Positions 1,255 to 29,643 of a DNA stretch of 64,000 bases are shown piece by piece. Source of the stretch: a virus; the IMG/VR virus record IMGVR_UViG_3300042946_000658, positions 62,001-126,000 of that record, one strand, 5' to 3'. Position 1 is the first letter of the stretch, and every line of letters begins with the position of its first letter. Under the pieces are notes generated by a model that saw only the letters and a list, made by a program, of their open reading frames with translations, was not told the origin of the DNA and made no database searches. Made by a program: the position numbers and the translations under genes.

Positions 1255-3957
1255 TTAAATATGTTGTTCCCAACCTTCTTCGGCTAATTCATACATATAA
1301 TCAGGTTCAAGACCTCGTTTCTTCCAATAAGAAACTTCACCGTCAGACATTGTCATAACTTCTTCAAGTTCATCTTGGTCTCCATTACCCAAAGGTAAAC
1401 CATTGATAAGTTCACATTGAGCTGTGGTAAATAAACCTCTTTTTGATGGGTCAGCAACAATTAGACTCTTTCTTACTTCTTCTTTGAATACAACCATAAG
1501 CGGTTCAATACGTTTGTTGAACGTTGTAATTGCTCTCGCAACATTGTATTCGCCAGTCATCTCAGGGTTGTTCTCAAGGTCTTCAGGGTTCAACATATAA
1601 CAATTTAACGTCACAGTATCACCTTTCTTAACAACATCTCCGTGAGAAGCTCTTTGTCCGTTATTAACATACATAATCATATCCCCCAAGTTAACATTCA
1701 ATCCGTGATGAATTGCAAGTTCCATATGTGCTTGTCTTGACATCAGAGACCCCGCTTTTGTCTTCTGTGTGCAACGAAACTTGTAGTCCTGTAGTGTTTG
1801 TTTAACTTTAGCTTTTTGAGCGATTTTGGCCAAAGGAATTTGTTGGTCCCAAATCTTTTGTAGATACTCGTAATAATACTCCACAAATGATTTACCATCA
1901 CCCTTTAATAAAAGTTTAATACCCTTATCCAAAAACTCTTCGATGTAACCAGGTAGTTTCTTTGATTTGATTGTGTTACCAACCAATTTGATTTTACCTG
2001 AATCGGTAAGTAGAGCATAGTTCTTACGAGCAAGGTTTATACACGATGGCCAAACACCATCGGTATCCAGTGCCATTTCACCTCTCATAAAAATATCGTT
2101 GTATTCTGCAACGTCAGCATCAGGTCCCGTATACTCTTTACCCTCTTTTACTTTCCAATTTAATCCTCGACCAATGTATCTGTGACTATCAACATCTTCA
2201 GGTGACGAGAAGTTCACACCGTCCGTATCCATTACAAGTGGAATGTAACCACGAGACATAAAGAATTTAATCATTTGACGAAGATATTGTCTACCCGTAC
2301 AAGTAATCTGTTCTCCCATATACATATCCCCCCAAGCAAATACCTGTGGAGCTGAAAGCGCACCGAACATCGAGTTGATGAAGATTTTAATCGGTAACTG
2401 TTTGTTGTTGTATGATGCTGATTTTTTGGGGTCAGATTCATAATACTCCTCAGCAAGTTGTTTGTACAAGATACGAGTATCACGGAAGTATTTTAACATA
2501 CCTTTCATCGCACCTGTTACGTCACATTGGGGGAACACATCGTGAACCAACTGAATTGATGGATAAAGTGACGAGAAGTCGAGCTTTAATACGCTTTTAG
2601 AATACCCTACTTTAAGTAGACGAGACAATCCACCTACGAAGTCTGTCTTGGATTGTTTTGCTGGTATTGCCAAATTATGTTTGTAAGACCACGCTAACAT
2701 CAACATCTTCCATAGTGTTGCCGTACCCATTGTAGATACTCGCTCATATGTTGTTGGAATCATTGATGCAAGTAGAAACGATGCTTGGTTGAATTCTTTA
2801 TCAACTTTTAAGGTTTCTTCCAAGTCATCTTGGAGATATCGTTCAACCAATTCGGCACCATCAGTTAATAGATAAGTGTCAGGAAACTTTTTATCCAAAT
2901 CAACATAGTCACCCTTTTTACGATACTCACCATTTTTGATGTTTAACCAATACTCTTTCTTTTCCTGATACATCTTACCAATAGAGTCGTGACCAATATA
3001 AACTCGGTCTGGTTCTTTTGCGTTTACATATTCTGCAATATACTTCAAACCCGCAGATTTGATTGATGAGTTAATTGCTTGAGCTCTACGGACCGCGTGA
3101 ATAATATCAATTACATTGTAACCCCAAATAGAAGTCTGCATAAAATCCTCAACTTCGTTTGCGAGTTTCAACAAGTTTTTCTTTTGTGATATGGAATGTT
3201 CGGGATGTAATGAGTGACATATTTTTTTGATGTCAATTCCCAACGCCTTACATCTTTCAAAAATCCAATACCAGTCAAAGTTTGCTGAGTTGTAACCACC
3301 GATAATACTTGGTTTGAGTTCATTAATTACTTTGAAGAACTCGATAATACCGCTCTTCTCTTGTGTCTCATCAATACATTCGATAATTCTATTATAACCT
3401 TTGTTTGTTCTAATACCAATCATAAAGATACGACCGTCTCTTGGTTCGAGTGAGGTCGTCTCTAAGTCGAATACCAATCGAGACACGTCATCATAGTCTT
3501 CATACCCCTTAAATAATCGTTTTTGTTTTGAAACGAAATATTGTTCTACAGGTGGTAGAATCAAAATCTTATCTTTAAATTTTTCACCCCAAGGGTCTGC
3601 TCCACCATCACGGAAGAACTGAATCAAACTTCTATACCCCTTCAAAGATTTAACCATATAGGTCAAACCTTTTTCCATTCGTTCATCACCGTGAGTATCT
3701 AATTTGTCAATAACAATCCCGTGTTTTGACATTGCTTCTTTTTGAGCTCCTTTGGAGTTTCCGTAGAAATTTAATCCACGTAAATCACCAACCCAACAAA
3801 ATGGAATGAATGTATCTTTTCGGATTTCTTTACCCTTACCAGGAATTTCTTTGATTTTATAAATGGAGTCTGAGGCGTAATCAAATTCTACCGCCACGAT
3901 AAATTCTTCAGGGTCGTTCCCTTCCAAGAATTCTTTGATTTCTTGTTGTTCAATCAT
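1255..3957 (-). CDS. 43: Family B DNA polymerase (T4 gp43-like)
   Basis: 900 aa, almost the same length as T4 gp43 (898). It replicates the phage genome and proofreads. Visible motifs: exonuclease motif I FDLETTSLEP (D164, E166); polymerase motif A LDFSSLYPSIQ with D460; motif B K524-x3-N528 in KIFINSMFG; motif C MDTDG with D577 and D579. All catalytic carboxylates are present, so both activities should be intact. The ATG is at 3955-3957. The 99-base leader upstream holds a TATTTATA box (4024-4031) and a perfect 6-bp hairpin (3989-4003). T4 gp43 represses its own translation through a leader hairpin, so this one is of interest. The HsdS-like gene follows at once. Confidence 0.96.
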   Translation of the reverse strand: MIEQQEIKEFLEGNDPEEFIVAVEFDYASDSIYKIKEIPGKGKEIRKDTFIPFCWVGDLRGLNFYGNSKGAQKEAMSKHGIVIDKLDTHGDERMEKGLTYMVKSLKGYRSLIQFFRDGGADPWGEKFKDKILILPPVEQYFVSKQKRLFKGYEDYDDVSRLVFDLETTSLEPRDGRIFMIGIRTNKGYNRIIECIDETQEKSGIIEFFKVINELKPSIIGGYNSANFDWYWIFERCKALGIDIKKICHSLHPEHSISQKKNLLKLANEVEDFMQTSIWGYNVIDIIHAVRRAQAINSSIKSAGLKYIAEYVNAKEPDRVYIGHDSIGKMYQEKKEYWLNIKNGEYRKKGDYVDLDKKFPDTYLLTDGAELVERYLQDDLEETLKVDKEFNQASFLLASMIPTTYERVSTMGTATLWKMLMLAWSYKHNLAIPAKQSKTDFVGGLSRLLKVGYSKSVLKLDFSSLYPSIQLVHDVFPQCDVTGAMKGMLKYFRDTRILYKQLAEEYYESDPKKSASYNNKQLPIKIFINSMFGALSAPQVFAWGDMYMGEQITCTGRQYLRQMIKFFMSRGYIPLVMDTDGVNFSSPEDVDSHRYIGRGLNWKVKEGKEYTGPDADVAEYNDIFMRGEMALDTDGVWPSCINLARKNYALLTDSGKIKLVGNTIKSKKLPGYIEEFLDKGIKLLLKGDGKSFVEYYYEYLQKIWDQQIPLAKIAQKAKVKQTLQDYKFRCTQKTKAGSLMSRQAHMELAIHHGLNVNLGDMIMYVNNGQRASHGDVVKKGDTVTLNCYMLNPEDLENNPEMTGEYNVARAITTFNKRIEPLMVVFKEEVRKSLIVADPSKRGLFTTAQCELINGLPLGNGDQDELEEVMTMSDGEVSYWKKRGLEPDYMYELAEEGWEQHI

Positions 3958-4056: not shown

Positions 4057-4434
4057 TTAGCAACAAGCAGTTTTTGCAATAAAGCTGTCTTCAACATTAA
4101 TATACAACTCTTCTCTAATAGGAACAATTAAATCACCCTCAAAGTTCTTGATTAAGAATTGTCCTTTGTATCTACCAGGAGTATTTGTGTCCCTTGCAGT
4201 AAATTGATAGTAGATATAATATTCTGTTGGAGCTCCGTCAGCCAAAATTAAACTAACAATAGAACAGGGCGCTGAAACAATCTTGGGAATACCCGTTGCC
4301 TCATTAATCATTGAGAAGTATATTGCTGAAACCTCTAAAAGGTCCATCAACTCCAAATAACCTGACCTACCGTCTTGAACGACCTGCATTTTTAATACAG
4401 GTAAAGTAGCATTTTTTCTGATAAAGAATTCCAT
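4057..4434 (-). CDS. BppU-like tail/baseplate accessory protein
   Basis: 125 aa. The pattern FFIRKNATLPVLKMQVVQDGRSGYLELMDLLEVSAIYFSMINE resembles the small beta-sandwich N-terminal domain of BppU-type baseplate upper proteins, in which a quantity such as 'polarisation' or 'material' limits is written as 'f.irkgdt.p.l...l.dg.g...dl....v.f.m'. It ends FIAKTACC with a Cys pair. It would act in the virion as a small structural or attachment subunit. A TATTTATC box lies five bases before its ATG, suggesting late expression. The following gene (4453-6132) is its upstream neighbour on the same strand, 18 bases away. Assignment rests on pattern similarity only. Confidence 0.45.
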   Translation of the reverse strand: MEFFIRKNATLPVLKMQVVQDGRSGYLELMDLLEVSAIYFSMINEATGIPKIVSAPCSIVSLILADGAPTEYYIYYQFTARDTNTPGRYKGQFLIKNFEGDLIVPIREELYINVEDSFIAKTACC

Positions 4435-4452: not shown

Positions 4453-6132
4453 TTAAGACTCTTTTCTCAAGCTTCTGTCATAATGTTCAAATCTATCGTG
4501 CTCAGTTGGGGTTGCAAATAACAATGCCGACTTGATATTACCCTTTTTAGTTTCTTGGAAAATGTAACTCATCCAAGTTTGTTCAAAAGGACGGTCCCAC
4601 TTTGTTGTTAAGAACATTTTCTCGTTTCCATATCTTGTAACAACTTGTGGCCAGTTACAATAATAAACTTCACCAATACCATAAGGTAATCCTTGATATG
4701 AATATACTGCGTCAAATTTAGTTCTTGGCGCATTAGGGTCTAATCCTTGAACAGGTAGGTTTGGTTTTTCAGGCCAAAACTTTTCTCTAACTGTTTGAGG
4801 AACATTATACCAAGACCATTGAACTCCATTGTCCCCAAAAAACTCAGAATAATTTAGTTTCAAAAAGTCTAATGAGTTTTCTCGGGTAATCTTCATAGAC
4901 TTATTGTATAGGTCCTGAATATTTCTAATGAACCCATTTCTACAAACAGTATCTTTACCATCATAGAAGAACATATCGTCTTCAAAGAACCAATAAAAAT
5001 CAAAACCATTTTCTTGTGCGTGTTCAGCGATAAATTGTCTACCACCACAGATACCTAAGTTATCTTTTTTAATGTGTTCAAACTCGTATAACTTACAAAG
5101 TTCCGAGTATTCCTCGGTAGTTGACAAGTCACTTGAATTATCTAAAAGATATTTCTTTTTAGGTTTTGTTAAGAAATTTTCATCATATAACTCCATAGAC
5201 TTAATCAATGTTTTAAATTGATTAGGACTATTGAATGTAATTACATAGAGTGAGGTGTTATCATAATCTAAATCACTATAAGACTGTTTACCTGAAATAT
5301 TTTTAACTTTATAGGTATCATTTTTAACATCTTCACAAAACTTAGAGATAAGTCCGTTACCATCAATTTCGTGGTAATCAAACATATCGTTGTGTCTGTA
5401 TAACATAATACTGAATAAAGATTCTTCAGTGCCCATTAAACCTCTACCTAAAGTCTCACTTAAAACACTATAATAAAGACTATTAACGTCTGTTATCATA
5501 CTTTTTAATCCACCAAACAAACCTCCTCTACAAACAAGTTTTACATCTTGTCCTGCGTAATCATTAATCGTTGGGTATTTGAATCCGTGAATTTCATTTT
5601 CAGCGTCATATGGGAACGCCACAAACCCAAATCTTGGAAATACCTTATCGAATTTTTCTTGAATTTTATCGTGTGTAAAATATCCAGGATGAACCGTATT
5701 TGTAATACCTGCATCAATCCAAAACAAATGTGTGGAGTCAAATTTGTCAAATATTTTTGCATCGTGCAATACAAACATTTTTGACATAACAAGAGGGTTA
5801 TACATATCAAGTTTTGCTTGAGTTGATTCTGGCAGCCATCCCGATTGACTATACCATTCAGGGTTTGTTCTTATAGACTGAATGATTTCATAAAAATCAT
5901 TTTTAAACCATTCTTGAGGTCTTACAATAAATTGGGTATTTTCATTATTTCTATTTGGTTGTGAAAATACGAATTCTTCAAGTTCTTTATCACCAAAAAT
6001 AATAAAGTTAGTGTCTTGTCTTAAAAGTTCCGAGAACTTTTGTAGATAATGGTCAAACGACCTTGACCATCCTTCAGTCAAAGAGTCACGTTTAATATTC
6101 CAAAGTCCGGTTACAAATGTAATTTTACTCAT
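4453..6132 (-). CDS. Two-domain glycosyltransferase: HtrL/YibB-type plus GT-A-like domain
   Basis: 559 aa. Residues 1 to about 290 match the HtrL/YibB family, whose hallmark is a W-[IV]-D-A-G metal-site motif; here FWIDAGIT at 137-144, followed by GGLFGG near 203. A second domain from about 295 starts with a new Rossmann-like strand (TSLYVITFNSPNQFKTLIKSM) and carries FYWFFEDDMFF near 380-390, an EDD motif as in GT-A enzymes. The protein therefore looks like two sugar transferases fused. The first domain is paralogous to the next gene upstream (6125-7006), with which it overlaps by eight bases, so the four genes 8984-4453 form one operon. Acceptor and donor sugars are unknown. Confidence 0.65.
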   Translation of the reverse strand: MSKITFVTGLWNIKRDSLTEGWSRSFDHYLQKFSELLRQDTNFIIFGDKELEEFVFSQPNRNNENTQFIVRPQEWFKNDFYEIIQSIRTNPEWYSQSGWLPESTQAKLDMYNPLVMSKMFVLHDAKIFDKFDSTHLFWIDAGITNTVHPGYFTHDKIQEKFDKVFPRFGFVAFPYDAENEIHGFKYPTINDYAGQDVKLVCRGGLFGGLKSMITDVNSLYYSVLSETLGRGLMGTEESLFSIMLYRHNDMFDYHEIDGNGLISKFCEDVKNDTYKVKNISGKQSYSDLDYDNTSLYVITFNSPNQFKTLIKSMELYDENFLTKPKKKYLLDNSSDLSTTEEYSELCKLYEFEHIKKDNLGICGGRQFIAEHAQENGFDFYWFFEDDMFFYDGKDTVCRNGFIRNIQDLYNKSMKITRENSLDFLKLNYSEFFGDNGVQWSWYNVPQTVREKFWPEKPNLPVQGLDPNAPRTKFDAVYSYQGLPYGIGEVYYCNWPQVVTRYGNEKMFLTTKWDRPFEQTWMSYIFQETKKGNIKSALLFATPTEHDRFEHYDRSLRKES

Positions 6133-7006
6133 CGATTTTATTTAATTCTTCTAAAATTTTATAGAAACTTTTGTTTTCAACAAAGTAACTGTCAGGGGTT
6201 TCTCTTGGAGCGTTATCTCTACACCACCAAGTATCAAAATGTTTTCTAACAAAATATTCTGAATGGTTGTAAAACATTAGTGTCATAAACAATTCTTCAG
6301 GAAAAGGTCTTTTATCCTCTTCAATAATCTTGTCAGCGTAATTCTCAAACATAGGTACTAATGTCTCCCATAATTCTCGTTTACCACCGAACATACCACC
6401 AATAATATGAATTGTTCTATCATAATTGGTATACCATTTTGGGTCAACTGTTTGAGACCAAAAATTTCTATCATTATCTTTACCAATCAAAAAGAATTTA
6501 TCTCCTGAAAATTCTACAACATTTTTTAAAAAATCATTATTAAATAACGATGACTCATAAAACTTTCTTGGACCGTTTTCTACCGTAAGGTATTTGTTCG
6601 GTATTAATCCGCTATGTGATAAACCAGCATCAATCCAATAATAATAATCGTATGTTTTATCTTCGTTCCACCACCAACTAAACTTTTGATATTGTATTTC
6701 AAAACATCTATCACTTTTTTTAGCGTCTTCATAGTTTTTATACTTTTGAAGTAGTGTTTCATATCTTGTGGTTCTTAAGTTAGACAACTCAAATTTTAAT
6801 TTATCTTCAGATATACCATTTTCAACATAAAAGAAATTTTTTAATCTATCAATTTCTCTTGTTGAGGTATAACACACAAAATCAGCATCGGTCATTTTTA
6901 ATAGTGAGAGAAGTGAATTTAAGTAATGACCAAATCTTGATGGTCTACCGCCTAACTCAGTCCCATATAGGTCACCGTAAATACAGGTTATAAATTTAAC
7001 TGACAT
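6125..7006 (-). CDS. HtrL/YibB-family putative glycosyltransferase
   Basis: 293 aa, the usual size for HtrL/YibB proteins, which sit in lipopolysaccharide and capsule loci and are thought to be glycosyltransferases. Visible: N-terminal strand VKFITCIYGD, YYWIDAGLS at 122-130 with the WIDAG signature, and HIIGGMFGGKRELWE near 200-214. It overlaps both neighbours (eight bases with the two-domain enzyme, eleven with the GT25 gene), so translation is probably coupled. It is a diverged copy of the first domain of the downstream gene. The sugar specificity cannot be read from the sequence. Confidence 0.65.
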   Translation of the reverse strand: MSVKFITCIYGDLYGTELGGRPSRFGHYLNSLLSLLKMTDADFVCYTSTREIDRLKNFFYVENGISEDKLKFELSNLRTTRYETLLQKYKNYEDAKKSDRCFEIQYQKFSWWWNEDKTYDYYYWIDAGLSHSGLIPNKYLTVENGPRKFYESSLFNNDFLKNVVEFSGDKFFLIGKDNDRNFWSQTVDPKWYTNYDRTIHIIGGMFGGKRELWETLVPMFENYADKIIEEDKRPFPEELFMTLMFYNHSEYFVRKHFDTWWCRDNAPRETPDSYFVENKSFYKILEELNKIDE

Positions 7007-7733
7007 AATAATATTCTTTATGAATGTTTTCTTTTTTCATTGTTTTATTGTTTACGTTATTCATAAACTCATTAGGTATTTTTACCTCACTATAAAGGTT
7101 CCAATTGTATGTTTGACCGTAAAAATTATTACACATTTGTTGTGAAACGTCTGACCAGTCATTAGTAATTTGTGGTGCTATGGGTAGAATTGGGCAATAA
7201 CTTTGTTTTTTTAAATATACTTTTTGATATATGTAATCATCCACTGCGTAAAATCTTCTACGTTCATCTTCTTCTATGGAAATAACATCATCATATGATG
7301 ATTCGTGATACAATATCATATTTGTTGCAAAAATACCTCTGTGTTCAGGAGACGCTGGTGGTAGATTAGTAATATCATTTAATAGTGGGTGTTTTTCGCT
7401 CCTATTAACATATCTATTTAAAGTTGGTGCCAAGTTAAAAACTGCGTATTCAAGACTTTGACACTCATCTTCGATTGCTTTTAATAAAGATTTTGCATAC
7501 GGCATAACAACACAATCATCTTCAATAATAAGAACTTCTTTATATCCTCTTTCTTTCGCAATTTTTAAAATAGCCGTGTGGGAAAGTGTACAACCCACGT
7601 GGCTATTAGTATCAACCGCCTTGAATAACTCAAAATCCCATTCAAGATATTCCATTTCTTTTTTAATGGATTCTAATCTATCAGGTCTTCTTTCAAGATT
7701 TACTACAAATTTTGGTATTGTATTGAACTTCAT
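6996..7733 (-). CDS. Glycosyltransferase family 25 (LPS-type) protein
   Basis: 245 aa, the usual GT25 size. The signature starts with VVNLERRPDRLESIKKE (10-26), then VDTNSHVGCTLSHTAILK (40-57), which is the 'GclaSH..i' element of the family, and LIIEDDCVVMP (69-79) with the metal-binding EDD. GT25 enzymes add galactose or glucose to lipopolysaccharide and, in animals, to collagen hydroxylysine. In this operon it could act on a phage-made or host surface glycan. It is followed by the HtrL/YibB gene with an 11-base overlap and preceded by the GT60 gene at a distance of three bases. Confidence 0.8.
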   Translation of the reverse strand: MKFNTIPKFVVNLERRPDRLESIKKEMEYLEWDFELFKAVDTNSHVGCTLSHTAILKIAKERGYKEVLIIEDDCVVMPYAKSLLKAIEDECQSLEYAVFNLAPTLNRYVNRSEKHPLLNDITNLPPASPEHRGIFATNMILYHESSYDDVISIEEDERRRFYAVDDYIYQKVYLKKQSYCPILPIAPQITNDWSDVSQQMCNNFYGQTYNWNLYSEVKIPNEFMNNVNNKTMKKENIHKEYYYVS

Positions 7734-7736: not shown

Positions 7737-8984
7737 TTAAAGATTTCCTGTTAATCTATCACACCAACCCTTAGATTCTGAGTGAGGCCATACAACCCAA
7801 TATTTAGGTTTTTCTGCTGTTTGGAATTCTCTCCATACTTTACAATATCCATCAGGGTCTCTTAACATTGAAGTAATTTCATTTTTATCAGCGTCTTTTC
7901 TAAAGATTGTTTCATCATTTTCATTGTGGAACGCAACCACCCAAAAATCATAATCTTTTTCAGGTACTGAAGAATAACCAATATCAATACAGTGTTTGAA
8001 TACTTGTGCGAAATCGGCTTTCCAATCATCTTCAGACTCATAATTGTATGGATTTGGCGGATATTTTTTATCAATTGTGTATTGCTGAACAGCTCTTTTT
8101 TCAAATAAAAGACCCGCATATTTTTCATAATCTCTTAAACTTCTAACGGTACCAAAGCCATAAGGACCATCGTGACCTTCTTGAGTTTCACCGTCCATAC
8201 CAAACAACTTTCTATTTGTTAAGTGTGAGTGATTATTTTTATTAACCCATTCTTTGTCATCATCCCATTGTTTTGTTCTTCCTTTACGAGTATACTCGTG
8301 CCAAATTAATGTTTTATGTGGGTGAAACAAATCATAACCCCAAGTATATGCTCTTGCGGCGATTGAAATTTCTTCTCCGTGGAAGTAATATTCGGGATTG
8401 TGTTGTACCTCGTTTGAGAATTCACCTAATGTAAAACAATAGTGTGCAGAATAGAATCTTGCGGGGATTGGTTCTTTTAAATCTTGCCAACCAGGAATTG
8501 TTTCAGGTAAGAAAAATACCGCACCTTCAGGAATAAATCTATCAAAAACCATTCTCCAAGGGTCTTGAACTCTACCTGCAGGGTCGTTTTCAGGGTCAAA
8601 TGATGAAACATATCCTGTTAATAAAGGTTTTTTATGACCTTTCTTTTGAAGTTGTTTAATCATCTTAATCATCTCGTCATCCCAATTAGGTGCGAACCTC
8701 ATATGTGAGTCAATTTGTAGGGTATATTCTTCACCCTCATAAAGTTGTTGTGTTAAGTTTCTAGCCCAACAAACGCCTTTAGATTCTTCGTGTGGAATAT
8801 CTAAAACTCTGAATCTTTTATCCCCTTCAAATTCTTCTAAACTGTCAAATTTATCATCGGGGTGAAATTGTCTTGCAATACCAAATCTAATATTTTTTGG
8901 TTTTTTAGCATTTTCCAACATATTCTTAATTGTTGGAACGAGTTGTGGGTCTCTATAGGACGCAATTTGAACAAAAATTTTCAT
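7737..8984 (-). CDS. GT60-family (GlcNAc transferase-like) glycosyltransferase
   Basis: 415 aa. The N-terminal half is a strong match by eye to the 'GlcNAc' family (GT60): IFVQIASYRDPQLVPTIKNM (3-22), GVCWARNLTQQLYEGEEY (70-87), YTLQIDSHMRF (87-97) with the family's D-S-H metal motif, and FHGEEISIAARAYTWGYDLFHP in the middle. Characterised GT60 members (Dictyostelium Gnt1 and Gnt2) attach alpha-GlcNAc to hydroxyproline or Thr in proteins, including mucin-like regions. The gene lies directly downstream of three genes for Thr/Pro-repeat proteins, separated from them only by a terminator (9008-9033). It heads the operon GT60, GT25, HtrL/YibB, two-domain GT. The family call is firm; polypeptide acceptor use is inference. 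Confidence 0.8.
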   Translation of the reverse strand: MKIFVQIASYRDPQLVPTIKNMLENAKKPKNIRFGIARQFHPDDKFDSLEEFEGDKRFRVLDIPHEESKGVCWARNLTQQLYEGEEYTLQIDSHMRFAPNWDDEMIKMIKQLQKKGHKKPLLTGYVSSFDPENDPAGRVQDPWRMVFDRFIPEGAVFFLPETIPGWQDLKEPIPARFYSAHYCFTLGEFSNEVQHNPEYYFHGEEISIAARAYTWGYDLFHPHKTLIWHEYTRKGRTKQWDDDKEWVNKNNHSHLTNRKLFGMDGETQEGHDGPYGFGTVRSLRDYEKYAGLLFEKRAVQQYTIDKKYPPNPYNYESEDDWKADFAQVFKHCIDIGYSSVPEKDYDFWVVAFHNENDETIFRKDADKNEITSMLRDPDGYCKVWREFQTAEKPKYWVVWPHSESKGWCDRLTGNL

Positions 8985-9007
8985 TACACTTTTTTTTAAA
9001 AAATAAA

Positions 9008-9033
9008 AAACCCTCCAATAAAGTGGAGGGTTT
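9008..9033 (-). terminator. Rho-independent terminator after the Thr/Pro protein genes
   Basis: AAACCCTCCA, 6-base loop, TGGAGGGTTT: a perfect 10-bp stem. On the minus strand it is followed by a T-rich run (TTTATTTTTT), right after the stop codon of the 9062-10381 gene. Some read-through into the GT60 operon would be needed unless that operon has its own promoter in 8985-9007, where I see no clear box. Confidence 0.85.
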
Positions 9034-9061
9034 ATATGAAAGTTGTTTTAAATAATTTGAA

Positions 9062-10381
9062 TTAACATCCGTTAGGGTCTGTCTGAACAATAACTCCTGA
9101 AGAATCTGTTCTGTACCAAGCGGTACCGTTAGACCAATATGCAACTCCTACAGGGTTTGATAATGGGTCAATTGTTTGATATAATGTCTCACCTAAGTTT
9201 GGTCCTACACCACCTGATACCGAACCATAAACTGTAATAGGACTAGCCGCACAAGCTAAGTTAGCGGTTGAGCCTGATGATAACGAGTAAACATAATTAT
9301 TTCTTGTTGGTGTTGGTGTTGGTGTACTTGTTCCTGTGTTAGTTGGTGTTTGAGTATTAGTTGGAGTATTAGTTGCGGTATTAGTTGGTGTTTGAGTATT
9401 AGTTGGTGTTGGTGTGTTAGTTGCTGTTTGTGTTGGTGTTGGTGTTAATGTTGGACATATTGAGAATCCATTTAATTCATAACCTGCAGAATCTAACTCA
9501 ACAACTTGACCCGAATTCTGATAGAAACCTGACATATCAGTTGTTACAGGTCCTGAAGGAGAATCATAGAAGAAAATATTTTGGTCAAAGAATTGATTTA
9601 TACCATATATCTCAATAGACGTACCGTAATTACCACAAGCATCAAGGGCATTATTTGCGAAATTCACGGCAAATTGGAATCTAGCAGGTTCAGTTGTTGA
9701 TGGTGTTGGAGTTGGTGTTTGAGTATTAGTTGCGGTGTTTGTTGGTGTTTGAGTAATAGTTGGTGTTGGTGTGTTAGATGATGTGTTGGTTGGAGTATTA
9801 GTCGGGGTTTGAGTTTGGGTACTAGTCGGAGTGTTAGTTGGTGTTTGTGTATTTGTAGGTGTTTGCGTTGGTGTACCTGTTTGAGTATTTGTTGGTGTTT
9901 GTGTTTGAGTTGATGTATTTGTTATAGTATTAGTCGGTGTCTGAGTTGGTGTATTTGTTGCGGTATTAGTTGGTGTTTGTGTTTGGGTATTACTTGGTGT
10001 GTTAGTTACAGTATTTGTTGGTGTATTAGTTACAGTATTTGTTGGTGTTGGTGTAGGCGTTTTGGTTTGAGTATTAGTTGGGGTTTGAGTATTAGTTGCG
10101 GTGATAGACGGTGTTGGAGTTGGGGTTCTTGTATTAGTTGGTGTTGGAGTATTAGTCGCAGTTTGAGATGGTGTTGGTGAAATAGGAGGGAATGTCTCCT
10201 CAACAATAGTAAATTGTGCTGATAAAGCAGCTTGAAACGTACCATTAACCAACCAAATATTTCGTACTTGACCAGGTGTTAATAAGATATCGTATTCCCA
10301 CATATTGTTGGAACACTCTTGATAAGAGAAAGTTAATCCCTGAGCTGTGTTATTAGTTAGTATGTATTTTTTACAAGCCAT
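9062..10381 (-). CDS. Mucin-like Thr/Pro/Asn-repeat virion protein (paralogue 1)
   Basis: 439 aa. Layout: globular N-terminal domain (1-67), a low-complexity stretch of TPT, TNT, TQT units (68-228), a compact domain with Cys residues (about 229-312), a second short repeat stretch, and a C-terminal domain (about 360-439) ending TDPNGC. Nearly every second residue of the repeats is Thr, with Pro, Asn and Gln between, as in mucin-type linkers; no Lys, Arg or aromatic residues interrupt most of it. The N-terminal domain is almost identical to that of the next gene. No signal peptide. Probable role: a fibre or decoration protein on the virion with extended, possibly O-glycosylated stalks. A TATTTAAT box precedes it. 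Confidence 0.7.
   Translation of the reverse strand: MACKKYILTNNTAQGLTFSYQECSNNMWEYDILLTPGQVRNIWLVNGTFQAALSAQFTIVEETFPPISPTPSQTATNTPTPTNTRTPTPTPSITATNTQTPTNTQTKTPTPTPTNTVTNTPTNTVTNTPSNTQTQTPTNTATNTPTQTPTNTITNTSTQTQTPTNTQTGTPTQTPTNTQTPTNTPTSTQTQTPTNTPTNTSSNTPTPTITQTPTNTATNTQTPTPTPSTTEPARFQFAVNFANNALDACGNYGTSIEIYGINQFFDQNIFFYDSPSGPVTTDMSGFYQNSGQVVELDSAGYELNGFSICPTLTPTPTQTATNTPTPTNTQTPTNTATNTPTNTQTPTNTGTSTPTPTPTRNNYVYSLSSGSTANLACAASPITVYGSVSGGVGPNLGETLYQTIDPLSNPVGVAYWSNGTAWYRTDSSGVIVQTDPNGC
9300..10180 (-). repeat. Low-complexity Thr/Pro-coding repeats (two blocks)
   Basis: Blocks at about 9300-9450 and 9700-10180. The plus strand is almost purely G and T (GTTGGTGT and GAGTATTAG units), the coding strand almost purely A and C. 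The units vary between 6, 12 and 24 bases, with frequent synonymous changes, so selection appears to keep the amino-acid pattern. Confidence 0.85.
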
Positions 10382-10398
10382 TTTAGTAGTTCTTTATT

Positions 10399-10406
10399 AT
10401 TAAATA
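10399..10406 (-). promoter_or_regulatory. TATTTAAT box upstream of Thr/Pro protein 1
   Basis: TATTTAAT on the minus strand, 17 bases before the ATG at 10381; a one-base-shifted variant of the TATTTATA box. Confidence 0.3.
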
Positions 10407-10420
10407 TCATCAATATGTTA

Positions 10421-10990
10421 TTAACAACTGCCAGTGTCTATAATAACTCCTGACCCGTTAGTTTGGATATAATTATGCCCATCAGAATAGAATGATGCTT
10501 CAGTTGTTGAGGTCATTGCAAAATTTAAATAAACAATATCACCATTAATCAAATTTGAAAATAGTTTTGTCGAATATCTTGGTGCATTTCCCTGTGGATA
10601 GTTATTACAAGCATTTACCGACAAAGTATCATCAATCCCTAAATCAGAATATTCAAACACTACTTGTGTTGGGGTTGGAGTCGGGGTTGATGTACGTGTT
10701 GGTGTTACTGATTGTGTTGGAGTAGGAGTTAACGTTGGAGTAACTGATGGCGTTGGTGTATTAGTCGGAGTCTGAGATGGTGTTGGTGAAATAGGTGGAA
10801 ACACTTCTTCAGTGATTGTGAATTGTGCCTCTAAAGCCGCTTGAAAAGTTCCGTTAACTAACCAAATATTTCTAACTTGACCAGGTGTTAATAAGATATC
10901 GTATTCCCACATATTGTTGGAACATTCTTGATAAGAAAAAGTTAAACCTTGTGAGGTGTTGTTTGTTAAAGTATATTTTTTACAAGACAT
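10421..10990 (-). CDS. Short Thr/Pro-repeat virion protein (paralogue 2)
   Basis: 189 aa. The N-terminal 67 residues (KKYTLTNNTSQGLTFSYQ and onward) are nearly identical to those of the 9062-10381 protein, followed by a short Thr/Pro linker (about 68-112) and a different C-terminal domain (113-189) ending VIIDTGSC. The pair therefore looks like a tandem duplication in which the tip was replaced and the stalk shortened. The shared N-terminus probably docks both proteins to the same virion site, while the tips differ. It starts nine bases after the stop of the 11000-12907 gene, so it is likely in the same transcript. Confidence 0.7.
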   Translation of the reverse strand: MSCKKYTLTNNTSQGLTFSYQECSNNMWEYDILLTPGQVRNIWLVNGTFQAALEAQFTITEEVFPPISPTPSQTPTNTPTPSVTPTLTPTPTQSVTPTRTSTPTPTPTQVVFEYSDLGIDDTLSVNACNNYPQGNAPRYSTKLFSNLINGDIVYLNFAMTSTTEASFYSDGHNYIQTNGSGVIIDTGSC

Positions 10991-10999
10991 AATATTTTA

Positions 11000-12907
11000 T
11001 TAACTATTTAAACAAGTTATACAATTATTCCAAGGACCCGATATAACGTCTGCGAATGTGGTTACTGTTGCAGTTGTTGTTGATATTATCGTGTAACAAG
11101 AAACACCATCATTAATTACATCTAATTTATAGATTTTACCCGTCTGTAAAGTATCATAAATACCAAACTGACCAACAAATCCTGAAGAACAATCTTGTAC
11201 TAAATATTTTTTAGCCCCTTGAGGTGTGTCAGTAGGTGTTACTGACGGTGTATTTGTATTTGTTGGTGTTGGACTTGCGGTATTAGTTGGAGTCTGTGTT
11301 TGTGTTGGAGTCTGTGTTTGTGTTGTTGTATTAGTTGGGGTTTGTGTTGGAGTATTTGATGCCGTGTTTGTTGGTGTCTGTGTTGCGGTATTAGTTGGTG
11401 TCTGTGTTTGTGTTGCCGTGTTAGTCGGAGTTTGAGTCGGAGTTTGAGTTGAGGTATTGGTTGGTGTATTTGTTGCAGTATTTGTTGGTGTTTGAGTTGG
11501 TGTTGGCGTATTACTAGCAGTATTAGTTGGTGTCTGAGTAGGTGTGTTGGTGGCAGTGTTTGTTGGTGTTTGAGTTGCGGTATTTGTTGGAGTATTTGTT
11601 GGTGTTTGAGTAGGTGTATTTGTTGCGGTATTAGTTGGAGTGTTAGTTGCAGTATTAGTTGGTGTCTGAGTTGGTGTATTTGTTGCAGTATTAGTTGGGG
11701 TATTTGTTGCTGTGTTTGTTGGAGTCTGAGTCTGAGTTGGAGTTTGAGTTGGTGTAGGTGTGTTGGTTGCGGTATTAGTCGGAGTTTGAGTTTGGGTAGG
11801 TGTATTTGTTGCTGTGTTAGTTGGAGTCTGAGTTTGAGTTGGAGTTTGAGTTTGGGTTGGTGTTTGGGTAGGTGTAGGTGTAAGTGTTACGCATATTGAA
11901 TACCCACCTGTTTCATTACCTGATGAATCCAACTCAACAACTTGTGCAGATTGTTGGTAGTAACCTGTCATATCAACGGTTACTGGACCTGACGGAGAAT
12001 TGTAGAAGAAATTGTTTTGGTCGAATATAGTTTCAATACCATATATGGTAGTTGATGTTCCATAATTACCACAAGCCTCATCATATGTACCACCTTTGAT
12101 AACTGAGAACGCATATCTTGGTGGTTCACTTGGGGTTGGAGTTTGTGTTTGTGTTTGTGTCGGAGTTTGTGTTTGTGTCGGAGTTTGTGTTTGTGTCGGA
12201 GTTTGTGTTGGAGTCTCTGTATTAGTTGGTGTTTGGGTTGGTGTTGAACCTAATGTAGATGTTGGTGTCTGAGTTGGTGTAGATGTTGGTGTGTTTGTCG
12301 CAGTATTAGTTGGTGTGTTTGTTGCGGTATTAGTTGGTGTGTTTGTTGCGGTATTAGTTGGCGTATTTGTCGCAGTATTAGTTGGTGTGTTTGTTGCGGT
12401 ATTAGTTGGCGTATTTGTTGCGGTGTTAGTTGGCGTATTTGTTACCGTATTAGTTGGAGTTTGTGTCGGAGTATTTGTATTACTTGGAGTTTGAGTTGGG
12501 GTTGAACCTAAAGTTGACGTTGGTGTTTGAGTAGGTGTAGGTGTCTGTGTGTTTGTAGGTGTCTGTGTGTTTGTAGGTGTTTGAGTTGCAGTATTTGTTG
12601 GCGTCGGCGTATTAGTTGTTGTATTAGTAGGTGTTGTTGTTGGTGTAACAGTCATTGTTGGCGTACTCGTACTAGTTACCGTAGGCGTAGGTGTTGGGCT
12701 TACTGGTGGAACCGTAACTTCTAAAGTGTAAGTGTAGTCATATGTTGGAATGTACATTTCAAACACACCATAATAGTATGATGAAATATAATTAAATGGT
12801 ATTACTTGCGTACCCAAATCTATTGTACCCCCCGAAGCAGGTAGATACGTTACTTCAGCGGTTTGACCACTTAAATTATTACTTAAAATTCTAATTCCAA
12901 TTGCCAT
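11000..12907 (-). CDS. Long mucin-like Thr/Pro-repeat virion protein (paralogue 3)
   Basis: 635 aa. Layout: N-terminal domain (1-63), Thr/Pro/Asn stalk (about 64-262), a compact domain (about 262-340) that closely matches the middle domain of the 439-aa protein (ACGNYGTS, then IYGI...FDQN, then SPSGPVT), a second long stalk (340-560) and a C-terminal domain (about 563-635) starting KKYLVQDCSSGF. That C-terminal domain is related to the middle domain of the 557-aa protein at 57 kb. Two stalks of over 190 residues each make this the most mucin-like protein in the window. A TATTTATT box lies five bases before its ATG. Probably a virion fibre; host-glycan binding by the compact domains is possible but unproven. 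Confidence 0.7.
   Translation of the reverse strand: MAIGIRILSNNLSGQTAEVTYLPASGGTIDLGTQVIPFNYISSYYYGVFEMYIPTYDYTYTLEVTVPPVSPTPTPTVTSTSTPTMTVTPTTTPTNTTTNTPTPTNTATQTPTNTQTPTNTQTPTPTQTPTSTLGSTPTQTPSNTNTPTQTPTNTVTNTPTNTATNTPTNTATNTPTNTATNTPTNTATNTPTNTATNTPTNTATNTPTSTPTQTPTSTLGSTPTQTPTNTETPTQTPTQTQTPTQTQTPTQTQTQTPTPSEPPRYAFSVIKGGTYDEACGNYGTSTTIYGIETIFDQNNFFYNSPSGPVTVDMTGYYQQSAQVVELDSSGNETGGYSICVTLTPTPTQTPTQTQTPTQTQTPTNTATNTPTQTQTPTNTATNTPTPTQTPTQTQTPTNTATNTPTNTATNTPTQTPTNTATNTPTNTATNTPTQTPTNTPTNTATQTPTNTATNTPTQTPTNTASNTPTPTQTPTNTATNTPTNTSTQTPTQTPTNTATQTQTPTNTATQTPTNTASNTPTQTPTNTTTQTQTPTQTQTPTNTASPTPTNTNTPSVTPTDTPQGAKKYLVQDCSSGFVGQFGIYDTLQTGKIYKLDVINDGVSCYTIISTTTATVTTFADVISGPWNNCITCLNS
11226..11890 (-). 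repeat. Thr/Pro-coding low-complexity repeats, distal stalk
   Basis: Continuous G/T-only plus strand built from GTTGGTGT, GTTGCGGT, GAGTTTGAGT and similar units; codes for the 340-560 stalk of the 635-aa protein. Confidence 0.85.
12290..12460 (-). repeat. 24-bp tandem repeat, about seven copies
   Basis: The plus-strand phrase GTATTAGTTGG recurs exactly every 24 bases at 12303, 12327, 12351, 12375, 12399, 12423 (one change) and 12447. Each copy codes for the octapeptide NTPTNTAT. This is the most regular part of the stalk and the likeliest place for copy-number change by slippage or recombination. There are no unique spacers, so it is not a CRISPR array. Confidence 0.9.
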
Positions 12908-12938: not shown

Positions 12939-14924
12939 TTATAAAATGTCATAAGATAAATCGTTATTTGGTAATAATGTATAATTCAGGTCATTATTCG
13001 GAAGTAATACGAAACCTAAATCGTTATCAGGTATTGATATGTAATAGAAGTCATTTGCCGGTATAACAATAGTACAATCAATACAATCAGTATCTAATAA
13101 ATCATACTTATTTTTTAGTAACCTAAAATTGTGTCTAATTTGTGACGCATCCAAAGGTTCGGTATACATTCTAAACGCACTGATATCACCAATGAAACTA
13201 CCACCAAAAATCTCTTCTAAATGTATTTCAGTTGTTAAACCTGAATAGATTGTGTGTTCCAAATCATAATCAGTCAAACACTCAGGGTCTTGTTGATATG
13301 TAATTGCCGACAATGTCGGAGCACATCCACCCGAAAAAGTTAAGTTGTCTTTTAATCCTTGAGTTCCCCCACCTAATGAAATGTTGTATGGAACCCCAAT
13401 TTGTTTTTCTTTATATGTGTTTAATGGTCGAGCAACAATTTCTTCAAAATCATCGATAATCATAAATTGTTTACCGTTAACATAAACATAAAGTTTACCT
13501 AACCTGTATTTTCTTTGTTGAATCCAATAATCGTTAATTTCAACAACATCCGTTGTTGCGGGAACGTCTTTAGGGTTGTGTGTAATTGGGGGTTCAATTA
13601 GGGAGACGCTATTGTTTGCTGTGGTTGCGGTATAAATCTCAGTGACCAATTGTCCTAATCCACCAAGAGAATATTGGTCCTTACAATCTAACCAATCATT
13701 TCTTCTAAACACAACATCAATTTGAACCCAGTGTTCCACATTTGGATATGTTGTTCCTGTACATCCATCAAAAATTCCTTTTGATGAACACCACTCGATT
13801 ACCGTGGTTCCTGTTACAAATGTTGTTCCTGTTTCACAAGTTCCCGTTGTAACACAAGAACCCGTTATTAGATACTCTTTAACACAGACTTTAGGGTTAC
13901 CAGTATCACCGCTAAGTCTAACTGACATACCGTTTGAAACCCCGTCATATAACGGGTCTAGTTCAGGATATTCGGCTTTAACCTCACACTGACAAGCACA
14001 TCCACAACTACAGTTTTTGGATGTTCCTCCTGACATTTGATAAACGTGAATACACTGATTTGAATTTGTGTAACCTGTTTCGTGACAAAGACAAGTTTTC
14101 ATACAAGTCAAACCTGATGTTACTCTTGTATATCCTGTGTCACTTTCAGGACTTCCGTCAGGATAGTGATAAAATTTATTTTCGGCTCTTGTCCCCAAAT
14201 AGAAGAAGGTACCTTTGTTATTTGGGTATCTATTATTAATACCGACACTTGTATCACCTGTCCATCTGTATTTTAATAAAAACTCAGCGGTCCAACCTTG
14301 ATTAGTTCTAACAGGGAATGTATCATAATCGTATCCTTGTAATTTAAAAAACCCTTGGAAGAATCCTCCGTTAAGTGTTGCCACGGTTCCGATACGACCG
14401 CCAGCATTAGACCAACTTAAATTATAGTTATATGAGTTGTCATTCCACAATCTGTTTGAAGGAGTTGTACTACCAGTAATTGGATGCATTTTAAATCTCC
14501 TATCGTACTTGTATCTGTTATATGTTTCGGCGGTTGTTGTGTACAGTCCTGTCGTAATGTCTATTGAAACCCCTGACATTTGTAATGTCAAACCATTGTC
14601 AATTCCTGTAAGTCCTACGTCACACAATGTTGACGCACAAACACAAAAGTTTGGGTCAATGTTTTTTGGGTTGTAATAATTTTCAGAAACTATTGTGTCA
14701 TATAAAAATTCGTTTCTTAAAGGAGCAATTGTTGTTCCAGTAGAATTGAAATCAAATTTCAAAGGCATTCTATTACCATCATCTTCAGCGATTAGAAATG
14801 GTGAAAAGATAACCTCTTGGTTATAATCTTTTTCGTCAGATGCTAAACAAAAATCAGTTACTTGGTTTACCGGTAGTAATCCAATTCTACGATAATTGTA
14901 TTGATTAATATTTTGATATGCCAT
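12939..14924 (-). CDS. LamG-like tail/fibre protein with C-terminal decapeptide repeats
   Basis: 661 aa. The central and C-terminal parts look like a laminin-G/concanavalin-type sandwich: WTAEFLLKYRW near 225, HWVQIDVVFRRNDW, KLYVYVNGKQFMIIDDFEEI, then YNISLGGGTQGL and FIGDISAFRMYTEPL. A Cys-rich insert (about residues 280-315, with CLCHETG and CSCGCACQC) may bind metal or be held by disulfides. The last 41 residues are four copies of a ten-residue unit of the form [IL]PxND[FL]xY. Such domains bind glycans, so a host-attachment role fits. It lies upstream of the Thr/Pro proteins on the same strand and has a TATTTATC box nine bases before its ATG. Confidence 0.65.
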   Translation of the reverse strand: MAYQNINQYNYRRIGLLPVNQVTDFCLASDEKDYNQEVIFSPFLIAEDDGNRMPLKFDFNSTGTTIAPLRNEFLYDTIVSENYYNPKNIDPNFCVCASTLCDVGLTGIDNGLTLQMSGVSIDITTGLYTTTAETYNRYKYDRRFKMHPITGSTTPSNRLWNDNSYNYNLSWSNAGGRIGTVATLNGGFFQGFFKLQGYDYDTFPVRTNQGWTAEFLLKYRWTGDTSVGINNRYPNNKGTFFYLGTRAENKFYHYPDGSPESDTGYTRVTSGLTCMKTCLCHETGYTNSNQCIHVYQMSGGTSKNCSCGCACQCEVKAEYPELDPLYDGVSNGMSVRLSGDTGNPKVCVKEYLITGSCVTTGTCETGTTFVTGTTVIEWCSSKGIFDGCTGTTYPNVEHWVQIDVVFRRNDWLDCKDQYSLGGLGQLVTEIYTATTANNSVSLIEPPITHNPKDVPATTDVVEINDYWIQQRKYRLGKLYVYVNGKQFMIIDDFEEIVARPLNTYKEKQIGVPYNISLGGGTQGLKDNLTFSGGCAPTLSAITYQQDPECLTDYDLEHTIYSGLTTEIHLEEIFGGSFIGDISAFRMYTEPLDASQIRHNFRLLKNKYDLLDTDCIDCTIVIPANDFYYISIPDNDLGFVLLPNNDLNYTLLPNNDLSYDIL

Positions 14925-18776: not shown

Positions 18777-19496
18777 ATGATTAAGATTCCATTACCTAAA
18801 ATTCTTTTTCTTGACATTGAGACTGTCGGACTAACAAAAGACTATGACCATTGCAAAAAGGAATACCCAAAAATTGCCGAACAATTTGATAAGTATTTTG
18901 ATTGGTTTTTGAAAAGGTTCCCTGAAGACCAACTGATTGGTAAAAACGAAGATGAACAAAAAAATCTTGTGTTTTCTTCACGAGCAGCTTTGGTTCCTGA
19001 ATTTGCAAAGATTGTTTGTATCAGTGTTGCGTTTGTTATGGAAAATGGTGATATTAAGAAACAAACATTCCACAACGATAATGAACAACACTTGTTGGTG
19101 GATTGTCAAAAGTTACTTGACCGTTGTGGTAGATTAGAATTTTGGTTGTGTGGACATAACCTTAAGAACTTTGATATTCCTATGATGGCAAAAAGAATGA
19201 TTATCAACGGATTAATGCCACCATCAATCTTACCGTCTTATGACACAAAACCTTGGGAGATTAGAGCGATTGACACCAAAGAAATTTGGCAATACGGTGC
19301 ATACACAGCAATTGGTTCTTTGGACCTTATGTGTACCTGTATGGACGTTCCATCTCCTAAAGAAGGTGAGGTTACAGGGGCTAAGGTTCACGACGCGTAT
19401 TGGAATAAAGGTATGTTAAAAGAAATTGCCGAATATTGTGAAAGAGATGTTCAGGTATTAATTGATGTTGTTCAAAAATTAAAAGCACTTATATGA
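18777..19496 (+). CDS. 3'-5' exonuclease, DnaQ/PolB-exonuclease-like
   Basis: 239 aa. Motif I FLDIETVGL (D13, E15), motif II GHNLKNFDIPMMAKR near 123-137, and motif III with YCERDVQVLIDVV near the C-terminus give the DEDD carboxylates of RNase H-like exonucleases. IRAIDTKEIWQYGAYTAIGSLDLMC matches the predicted family B polymerase-associated exonuclease group. It may trim DNA ends or degrade host DNA; it is separate from the proofreading domain of the polymerase at 1.3 kb. Stop and start codons overlap with the dUTPase gene (ATGA), linking the two nucleotide-metabolism functions. Confidence 0.8.
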   Translation: MIKIPLPKILFLDIETVGLTKDYDHCKKEYPKIAEQFDKYFDWFLKRFPEDQLIGKNEDEQKNLVFSSRAALVPEFAKIVCISVAFVMENGDIKKQTFHNDNEQHLLVDCQKLLDRCGRLEFWLCGHNLKNFDIPMMAKRMIINGLMPPSILPSYDTKPWEIRAIDTKEIWQYGAYTAIGSLDLMCTCMDVPSPKEGEVTGAKVHDAYWNKGMLKEIAEYCERDVQVLIDVVQKLKALI

Positions 19497-20101
19497 TTGA
19501 TTTTGAATCAGACCCAGAATTAAACGATGAGATTAAAAGACTCTTCGACGAAATTAAAAATTTTAAAGACGAGAATGATGATGAGGATTTGATGTCCGAA
19601 ATTGAATCCCGTTTAGGTTTACCTTTTGACGAATTTGAAAAGTTATTAGGGGACGCCTTAACAAAAAAACCATTGTTCTATAAAAAACTACACGAAGATG
19701 CTGTAGACCCAAAGTACGCATATGAAACCGATTCAGGTTTTGATTTACACAGTGTAGAAGAAATCCATTTCTTACCATTTGAACGTAAGTTAGTTCCAAC
19801 AGGATTATCATTTGATATTCCTGAAGGTTTTGAAATTCAAGTAAGAACTAAAAGTGGGTTGGCAATTAAACAAGGACTTATGGTTTTGAATAGTCCTGGA
19901 ACTGTAGACCAAGGATACACAGGTGAGGTCAAAGTTATTCTAATGAATATGAATAATATGGCGGTTACCGTTGAAAAAGGACAGAAGGTTGCTCAAGGCG
20001 TTTTATGTCCTGTAGAATCAGGTAAAAAAGTTTCTTTGGTGGAAGATGAATTTGAGGATAAAGAACGTGGTTCAAATGGATTTGGTTCAACAGGAATTTA
20101 A
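19493..20101 (+). CDS. dut: dUTPase with N-terminal extension
   Basis: 202 aa. All five motifs of trimeric dUTPases are visible: I AYETDSGFDL (76-85), II RTKSGLA (118-124), III GTVDQGYTGEV (136-146), IV GQKVAQGV (163-170) and V RGSNGFGSTG (192-201). It hydrolyses dUTP to dUMP and pyrophosphate, keeping uracil out of phage DNA and supplying dTMP precursor. An acidic N-terminal extension of about 60 residues (EIKRLFDEIKNFKDEND) is not part of the enzyme core and may mediate contacts. It overlaps the exonuclease gene by four bases. Confidence 0.93.
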   Translation: MIDFESDPELNDEIKRLFDEIKNFKDENDDEDLMSEIESRLGLPFDEFEKLLGDALTKKPLFYKKLHEDAVDPKYAYETDSGFDLHSVEEIHFLPFERKLVPTGLSFDIPEGFEIQVRTKSGLAIKQGLMVLNSPGTVDQGYTGEVKVILMNMNNMAVTVEKGQKVAQGVLCPVESGKKVSLVEDEFEDKERGSNGFGSTGI

Positions 20102-21731: not shown

Positions 21732-21762
21732 AGTCCTTATTTATTTTTACTAAAAAATTATT

Positions 21763-21775
21763 ATTTTAGTATAAA
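21763..21775 (+). promoter_or_regulatory. ATTTTAGTATAAA, shared upstream motif
   Basis: Thirteen bases shared (one mismatch) with 17533-17545; here seven bases before the ATG at 21783, in a 51-base gap. Possibly a middle-type promoter element. Confidence 0.3.
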
Positions 21776-21782
21776 AATTAAT

Positions 21783-23759: not shown

Positions 23760-23762
23760 AAT

Positions 23763-24362
23763 ATGCCAATATCAGATAACCTAAAAACAATTTTTGTCCA
23801 TATACCAAAAAACGCTGGTACTGCAATTACTAATAGTAAAATTGCAAGATTTTATATGGGTGGTCACGATTCGGCAAAAGAAATTAAAAATAAAGAACCT
23901 AAAAAATGGGACGAATATTTCAAATTTGCCGTCATTAGAAATCCTTGGGATAGGGTCGTTTCCAATTATGAGTATGCTCGTATGGAAAAAAGTTATTGGC
24001 ACCACGTAAGTGACACGAATGTTGGCGCGGCTCATTTCGATTACCATACATTGAAAGATAAAACATTTGAGGAGTGTGTTAATATGTTGTATGAAGACAG
24101 GTCGTCTTTAAAACATCAAGGTTGGGCACCTCAATATGTGTGGATATCTGATAATGAAAAAAATATTTTAGTTGATAAAGTTTTTTATCACGAAACTTTA
24201 GAAACTGATGAGGAGTTTAATAAGTTAATTCCTGATTTAGAAAAGGTAAACTTTAGTGATAGAAAAAGCAACAATTACAAAGATTATTATACTGAAGATT
24301 TGATACGTAAGGTGTCAGAGATTTATGAATATGATATAAATTTATTTAAATTCAAATACTAA
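23763..24362 (+). CDS. PAPS-dependent carbohydrate sulfotransferase
   Basis: 199 aa. The 5'-phosphosulfate loop is FVHIPKNAGTA (11-21) and the 3'-phosphate site FAVIRNPWDRVVSNYEY (55-71) with R59 and S67, the standard signatures of Golgi-type and bacterial sulfotransferases. The protein would move sulfate from PAPS to a sugar hydroxyl. It is a little shorter than typical members (about 230-300 aa) but keeps both PAPS elements. The next gene, three bases on, encodes the kinase that makes PAPS. In a block of glycosyltransferases this points to sulfated glycan. Confidence 0.82.
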   Translation: MPISDNLKTIFVHIPKNAGTAITNSKIARFYMGGHDSAKEIKNKEPKKWDEYFKFAVIRNPWDRVVSNYEYARMEKSYWHHVSDTNVGAAHFDYHTLKDKTFEECVNMLYEDRSSLKHQGWAPQYVWISDNEKNILVDKVFYHETLETDEEFNKLIPDLEKVNFSDRKSNNYKDYYTEDLIRKVSEIYEYDINLFKFKY

Positions 24363-24365
24363 ATT

Positions 24366-25153: not shown

Positions 25154-25154
25154 A

Positions 25155-25559: not shown

Positions 25560-25789
25560 TTGATGTAAAAATTAGATACAATACGGTTTGTGATGATAAT
25601 CACATGTATTGGAGAATTTTAATAAACGGTGTTGAACATACTTGTTCAAATATCTTAATAGAAACACCCATGCACACAACTATTGATACGGTGTATGACC
25701 CATCAAGAGAAAAAATGGTAACAAAACACCATATCTCTTGTATGGCATCTGAAGTTATTTGGAAGGGTGATGTTGTAATTGTTAAGTAA
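25556..25789 (+). CDS. Hypothetical small protein
   Basis: 77 aa, beta-rich (DVKIRYNTVCDDNHMYWRIL, then ISCMASEVIWKGDVVIVK) with no family recognised. Overlaps its upstream neighbour by four bases (ATGA) and the DUF2061 gene downstream by one (TAATG), so it is translated as part of the same unit. Confidence 0.6.
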   Translation: MIDVKIRYNTVCDDNHMYWRILINGVEHTCSNILIETPMHTTIDTVYDPSREKMVTKHHISCMASEVIWKGDVVIVK

Positions 25790-26560: not shown

Positions 26561-26562
26561 TT

Positions 26563-29642: not shown

Positions 29643-29643
29643 T

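Follow-up and report, generated by a model that had tools for sequence, protein, structure and literature searches.

Does a bacteriophage carry its own machinery for coating virion fibers with mucin-type sugars? This question is raised by the viral record IMGVR_UViG_3300042946_000658 (141.7 kb), of which we analyzed a stretch of 64,000 bases (bases 62001-126000, hereafter the window). Three genes encoding proteins with stalks rich in threonine (Thr) and proline (Pro) stand here beside a gene for a glycosyltransferase of family GT60. Read 5' to 3' on the minus strand, the order is a gene for a 661-amino acid protein, the three stalk genes, GT60, a GT25 gene, a weakly HtrL-like gene, an HtrL/TAGT-like gene, a small conserved gene, and the DNA polymerase gene. 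The terminase of the window is distant from those of T4-like phages (28.5% identity at best). The observations that bear on the question are the family of the enzyme, its predicted fold, the gene order, the association with stalk genes, and the lack of predicted membrane segments. Judging from them, we consider it likely that the phage encodes a mucin-type O-glycosylation system that would act on virion stalks.

The proposed initiator is encoded at 7737-8984 (minus strand, 415 amino acids), in a gene that starts 77 bases past the last of the three stalk genes. A profile search against PF11397, called for in the initial annotation, confirmed its GT60 assignment with 225.7 bits (curated cut-off 21), and the protein matches phrog_24687 with E=1e-166. 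Residues D92, H94, and H229 are unchanged in 40 aligned GT60 relatives from phages and bacteria. Animal polypeptide N-acetylgalactosaminyltransferases (ppGalNAc-transferases, GT27) carry a DxH motif, and we take D92/H94 to be the same motif, presumably with the metal-binding role it has in GT27. The AlphaFold (AF2) model has a mean predicted local distance difference test score (pLDDT) of 93.6. ppGalNAc-transferases filled ranks 1-29 both in Foldseek and in a second look with VIA (Z 22.2-19.1 across these ranks, 16.9 for the next match), with 11-14% identity over the 29 best rows. The predicted fold thus resembles that of ppGalNAc-transferases, the DxH and one more His being conserved, and residues about 326-415 form a C-terminal segment rich in beta structure. 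The GT60 profile had no match among the sequences of solved structures. ppGalNAc-transferases start animal mucin-type O-glycosylation, and GT60 comprises protist polypeptide alpha-N-acetylglucosamine (GlcNAc) transferases (PMC6939170, PMC8724618), members of which are described as starting mucin-type chains (PMC8724618); the Trypanosoma cruzi activity was measured with a Thr-rich acceptor peptide (PMC3769586). The phage enzyme is proposed to be a polypeptide transferase of the O-GlcNAc type.

The presumed substrates are unusual in composition. Stalk protein 1 (9062-10381, 439 amino acids), the short stalk protein 2 (10421-10990, 189 amino acids), and stalk protein 3 (11000-12907, 635 amino acids, 507 of them stalk residues) are all encoded on the minus strand, and proteins 1 and 3 are the proposed substrates. 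Thr makes up 36, 26, and 41% of all their stalk residues, respectively, and 50, 36, and 54% of their best 50-residue segments. The earlier description of the stalks as almost half Thr is accurate for the best stretches of proteins 1 and 3 and too generous for the much poorer protein 2. The other 58 open reading frames (ORFs) of at least 100 amino acids in the window average 5.5% Thr, and their best 50-residue segments reach 26% in the 661-amino acid protein (12939-14924, minus strand) and at most 18% in the rest. Because these ORFs are so much poorer in Thr, the excess in the stalks is not due to chance. Thr alternates with other residues in the two long stalks, mainly with Pro, Asn, Gln, and Ala: 89 and 92% of the Thr have another Thr two positions on (lag 2), and 1 and 3% have one directly after them (lag 1). 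Both use all four Thr codons, so that the alternation is not the product of a simple DNA microsatellite. Few N-x-S/T sequons are present (2 and 4), and the strict alternation of Thr fits dense O-glycosylation. Dense Thr/Ser-Pro acceptor domains, a hallmark of mucin-type substrates, are thus present in the stalks.

Relatives of these genes were sought in a viral collection, where one query returned 538 stretches with a GT60 relative, some on near-duplicate contigs; the best 80 were used and are referred to here as close loci. The N-terminal 66 residues of stalk protein 2 match the starts of 31 ORFs across the 80 close loci, and its C-terminal tip occurs in just 5 of them, 100% identical in all. 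Such a common start with a lineage-specific tip is expected for fiber-like proteins. The N-terminal part of stalk protein 1 is likewise common to other stalk proteins, and gene context suggests that the stalks are virion components. The 661-amino acid protein is conserved, and 17 of its 23 dereplicated relatives have a stalk C-terminal to it within one ORF. It has no match in Pfam or among phage records, and its AlphaFold model was set aside (pLDDT 30.8). A fourth stalk gene lies away from the cassette (57013-58686, minus strand), and four more are found elsewhere in the record, one of them cut by the record end. Repeats of another kind, of the Gly-Thr-Ser-Gly-Ser-Ser type, occur in a long ORF (L085:1-5675).

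The initial annotation had staked its proposal on an association of GT60 with Thr-rich proteins in related phages, and this association is present. A gene was counted as a stalk gene if its product has at least one 50-residue segment with 30% Thr and 10% Pro, and gene labels were shuffled inside each locus in 2000 permutation runs. Of the close loci, dereplicated to 52, 35 of 50 had a stalk gene directly upstream of GT60, against 6.2 by permutation (0/2000 runs), and 42 of 50 had one no more than two genes upstream. All 86 stalk genes in the 52 loci share the strand of GT60. A second GT60 clade, whose enzymes share about 41-46% identity with that of the window and whose neighbor genes differ (68 loci, minus 5 of other GT60 types, dereplicated to 47), shows the pairing again: 29 of 47 loci have a stalk gene no more than three genes from GT60, versus 21.0 by permutation (0/2000 runs). 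Permutation thus links the initiating transferase genetically to the acceptor genes in two clades, unlike in most bacterial loci. Among 18 contigs selected by the terminase of the window's own lineage (18 of 80 loci kept, contigs of at least 30 kb), five carry GT60, and all five also carry stalks. One viral contig of 156.7 kb (L259/G036) has GT60 in two copies, with about 1.3 kb between them.

Downstream of GT60 the locus has a variable middle and a conserved 3' end, all on the minus strand. The GT25 enzyme named in the initial annotation was verified (6996-7733, PF01755, 56.6 bits). Its two HtrL/YibB-type enzymes fared unequally: the gene at 4453-6132 is a firm case, with an N-terminal HtrL_YibB domain (PF09612, 42.6 bits) and a TAGT-like C-terminal half, and the putative glycosyltransferase at 6125-7006 matched no Pfam or NCBIfam family and is weakly similar to the HtrL half of its neighbor (E=0.002, one pairwise test). 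The HtrL/TAGT gene acts as a bookend: in 75 of the 80 close loci 1-13 genes separate it from the upstream GT60, which has the same orientation, and 50 of the 52 dereplicated loci share this order. In the window it is followed by the small conserved gene (4057-4434) and the DNA polymerase gene, named by eye (1255-3957). The genes in the middle vary between phages, homologues of the window GT25 and of the protein encoded at 6125-7006 being found in 32 and 43 of 74 relatives' loci, respectively. A further 132 distinct middle proteins were gathered from relatives' cassettes, of which 121 were scanned. The Pfam matches among those listed (25 of 41 families) include GT10 (13), FkbM methyltransferase (12), rhamnosyl O-methyltransferase-like (6), GT25 (4), PLOD-type glycosyltransferase (4), GT11 (3), GT7-type (3), sulfotransferases, and a carbamoyltransferase. 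The N-terminal half of a 522-amino acid phage protein (L088:1217-2785) has iron/manganese superoxide dismutase domains.

Among 50,697 phage records, tblastn found a GT60 match in three, XacN1, RAS14, and CM1; this search would overlook more distant GT60 relatives, several of which are included among predicted viral structures. The same three records are the only ones with a full-length bookend gene. In XacN1, a Xanthomonas jumbo phage, the GT60 homologue is ORF334 (48% identity), and three stalk proteins (ORF369, ORF370, and ORF372) adjoin tail-sheath genes. Proteomics of XacN1 is reported to have revealed at least two glycoproteins, and its authors suggested that two phage glycosyltransferases, one of them ORF334, may make glycoproteins (PMC5852040). 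The main text of that paper does not mention ORF369, ORF370, or ORF372. The stalk search among the three phages covered XacN1 and RAS14. In RAS14, a Stenotrophomonas jumbo phage, the strict stalk pattern matched nowhere and the looser pattern TPTxTPT 22 times; six large control genomes have no match to the looser one. Two of the three RAS14 ORFs examined pass the stalk threshold (42 and 40% Thr), giving at least two stalk proteins, and one ORF with TPTxTPT matches falls below it.

GT60 and HtrL/TAGT bookends co-occur in bacterial contigs as well, and GT60, HtrL, and TAGT-like parts are joined in one chain in three contigs of Myxococcales metagenome-assembled genomes (MAGs; L481, L516, L524). 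In Saprospiraceae/Bacteroidia MAG contigs (L457-L459), GT60 (69-71%) adjoins the bookend gene (60-63%), which hints at gene exchange with Bacteroidota. In many Burkholderiales contigs (part of L483-L504), the next gene after GT60 is an ORF of about 1137-1212 amino acids on the opposite strand.

The C-terminal half of the bookend protein opens a different explanation. It has a weak TAGT match (20.6 bits, under the cut-off of 27.5) and a 26-bit match to phrog_842, a beta-glucosyl-HMC-alpha-glucosyltransferase, so that the enzymes might glycosylate hypermodified phage DNA against restriction, like T4-type or TET-associated glycosyltransferases, with the stalk genes as mere neighbors. However, no thymidylate-synthase/hydroxymethylase family (PF00303) was found in the 141.7-kb record, which is possibly incomplete, and this family was positive in 9 of 14 control genomes; Tet_JBP was not found either, but no control was positive for it. 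The occurrence of GT60 with the HtrL/TAGT gene in bacterial contigs, and their fusion in the Myxococcales ones, also argue against a role in phage DNA modification. Moreover, the modeled fold is closest to polypeptide transferases, and the adjacency of the stalks would be left unexplained. We regard DNA glycosylation as very unlikely.

A second glycan island lies on the plus strand; like the bookend architecture, the variable middle, and the additional stalk genes, it does not figure in the initial annotation. It spans about 11.7 kb (20112-31755) between a dUTPase-like gene (19493-20101) and a PhoH-like gene (31892-32626). Pfam matches there comprise GT2/GT4 enzymes, a sulfotransferase (23763-24362), an APS kinase (24366-24815), a HAD/nucleotidyltransferase (26949-28349), a GT10 (28387-29229), a DegT-like protein (30182-30778), and a GDP-mannose dehydratase (30775-31755). 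One related contig (G033) has mainly different genes between dUTPase and PhoH. GT2, GT10, GT11, methyltransferase, carbamoyltransferase, and GDP-mannose dehydratase families, which are present in the cassettes or the island, occur in surface polysaccharide loci too. The cassette could thus change the host cell surface, by O-antigen-type seroconversion or superinfection exclusion. Against this, no membrane segment was predicted in the 121 cassette proteins or in the 16 sugar-related enzymes of the window that were scanned by the Kyte-Doolittle method, which does flag seven ORFs elsewhere in the record. No GtrA flippase was found in the record either (controls positive in 7 of 14), and these searches accordingly revealed neither the flippase nor the membrane transferase of a Gtr-type system. 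Nor does a host-surface role predict conserved adjacency to stalk genes, and we consider it very unlikely. DNA modification and host-surface modification both fit less well than cytoplasmic O-glycosylation of the stalks.

Several observations nevertheless weigh against stalk glycosylation, the first being that a glycan on stalk Thr is here an inference and not something observed. A related 125-kb contig (G032) keeps stalks without the GT60 cassette: its stalk ORF of at least 4247 amino acids, cut by the contig end (L538, G032:C1:1-12741), is the strongest evidence that such stalks can exist without GT60. Its dUTPase and PhoH genes are 26 bases apart with no counterpart of the second island, so that in this one case the GT60 cassette and the island are missing together; a GT2-like and a weak GT4-like gene are present (Pfam tally of 69 of 94 ORFs, 25 of 67 families among those listed). 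The lack of GT60 on G033 is an artefact, because that contig starts inside the stalk-bearing gene of the 661-amino acid type that precedes GT60 in relatives. Stalks occur without GT60 on eight of the 18 own-lineage contigs, and GT60 is found on just 19 of 42 stalk-pattern contigs (42 of 120 loci, contigs of at least 30 kb, pattern matches counted irrespective of reading frame), many contigs in both sets being fragments. In the second clade a stalk gene directly upstream of GT60 is not enriched (6/43 versus 4.6; 608/2000 runs), and its loci yielded no bookend gene. In XacN1 about 26-38 kb separate the stalk genes from GT60, and in RAS14 the distance is larger; the main text on XacN1 does not give which proteins are glycosylated (PMC5852040). 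Bacteria do not support a general link, because just 7 of 72 GT60 loci have a stalk ORF (the best 80 of 204 relatives, minus 8 without a recovered GT60 ORF). Control contigs of T4-like phages, picked by a Flavobacterium-phage terminase (14 of 80 loci kept, at least 30 kb), do speak for the pairing in that they lack both GT60 (0/14) and the stalk pattern (0/14), but these are distant (terminase about 27% identical), which makes the control weak, as shared absence may only reflect descent.

Contigs such as G032, and the others that have stalks and no GT60, would suit a view of the stalks as unglycosylated, extended linkers, with GT60 acting on another phage or host protein and the fiber-like region being a hotspot of gene exchange. 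The recurrence of the GT60-stalk pairing in the second clade, among different neighbors, and the strict alternation of Thr speak against it. So does the conservation of GT60, which exceeds that of DNA polymerase in 54 of 54 loci, though these loci were selected by GT60 similarity. This is the alternative we take most seriously, and we still consider it unlikely.

If stalk glycosylation is correct, the alternating-Thr proteins would be produced in the cytoplasm, where the soluble GT60 encoded next door would add the first sugar to stalk Thr, most likely alpha-GlcNAc from UDP-GlcNAc. The chain would then be extended and capped by the variable middle enzymes (transferases, methyltransferases, sulfotransferases, and others) and by the HtrL/TAGT bookend, and the glycosylated stalks would be assembled into virion fibers or decorations. 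There the glycans might stiffen and lengthen the stalk, protect it from proteases, and give every phage its own surface. The initial proposal that the phage glycosylates its own fibers to stiffen, shield, or disguise them is thus partly supported, by the enzyme family, the fold, the adjacency, the pairing in other groups, the lack of predicted membrane segments in the cassette proteins scanned, and the glycoproteins reported for XacN1. The acceptor site, the sugar, the order of steps, the virion location, and any benefit are inferred, with stiffening, protease shielding, and disguise being conjecture. In many large freshwater phages, the GT60 enzyme beside Thr stalks and the changeable genes that follow it suggest that these viruses coat their virions with mucin-like sugars. 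More tentatively, and with somewhat more doubt than confidence, several groups of large phages might share a glycan-coat locus in which a conserved initiator and its HtrL/TAGT partner bracket swappable genes, and a virion "serotype" carried on Thr stalks would evolve by cassette exchange, like bacterial capsules.

Should these proposals hold, O-glycosylation of proteins in the mucin manner, commonly regarded as eukaryotic, would also operate in bacteriophages, with initiator, substrate, and tailoring genes together in one phage cassette. This would account for many Thr/Pro "low-complexity" phage proteins and provide a toolkit with which mucin-like glycoproteins could be produced in the bacterial cytoplasm; what virion glycans do in phage ecology would also become open to direct tests. 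Since 538 stretches of the viral collection encode a GT60 relative, even with some near-duplicates, the system is not a curiosity.

How does this cassette compare with known systems? The phage enzyme shares the PF11397 family with the protist GT60 members Dictyostelium Gnt2, T. cruzi TcOGNT-2, and Skp1 Gnt1, of which the mucin-type ones are described as targeting Thr-rich domains (PMC3769586). Unlike them, it has a beta-rich C-terminal segment and no predicted membrane segment, and its gene stands in one row with the genes for its putative substrates and chain-extending enzymes; its donor and acceptor are likewise putative. The animal ppGalNAc-transferases are the closest solved folds (Z up to 22.2), although they belong to another family. 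No description of this phage system was found in open-licence papers. The statement in the initial annotation that no phage system of this kind had been described is nonetheless too broad, as virion glycosylation in mycobacteriophages and the suggestion made for XacN1 came earlier (PMC12619734, PMC5852040). Mycobacteriophage virions are glycosylated at the C termini of capsid and tail-tube subunits (Freeman 2023, as cited in PMC12619734), that is, on structural proteins and not on dedicated Thr/Pro stalks such as the phage studied here is proposed to use. XacN1 shares the GT60 homologue, the bookend gene, and three Thr/Pro stalk proteins with the window, but its stalk genes are distant. In Gram-positive serine-rich-repeat loci, a repeat adhesin gene lies beside a conserved initiating transferase (GtfA/GtfB) and variable extension genes. 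The phage cassette resembles them in combining a repeat protein, an initiator, and variable genes. They differ in that the serine-rich-repeat loci serve cell-wall adhesins through an initiator of another family, whereas the phage cassette is built around stalk proteins.

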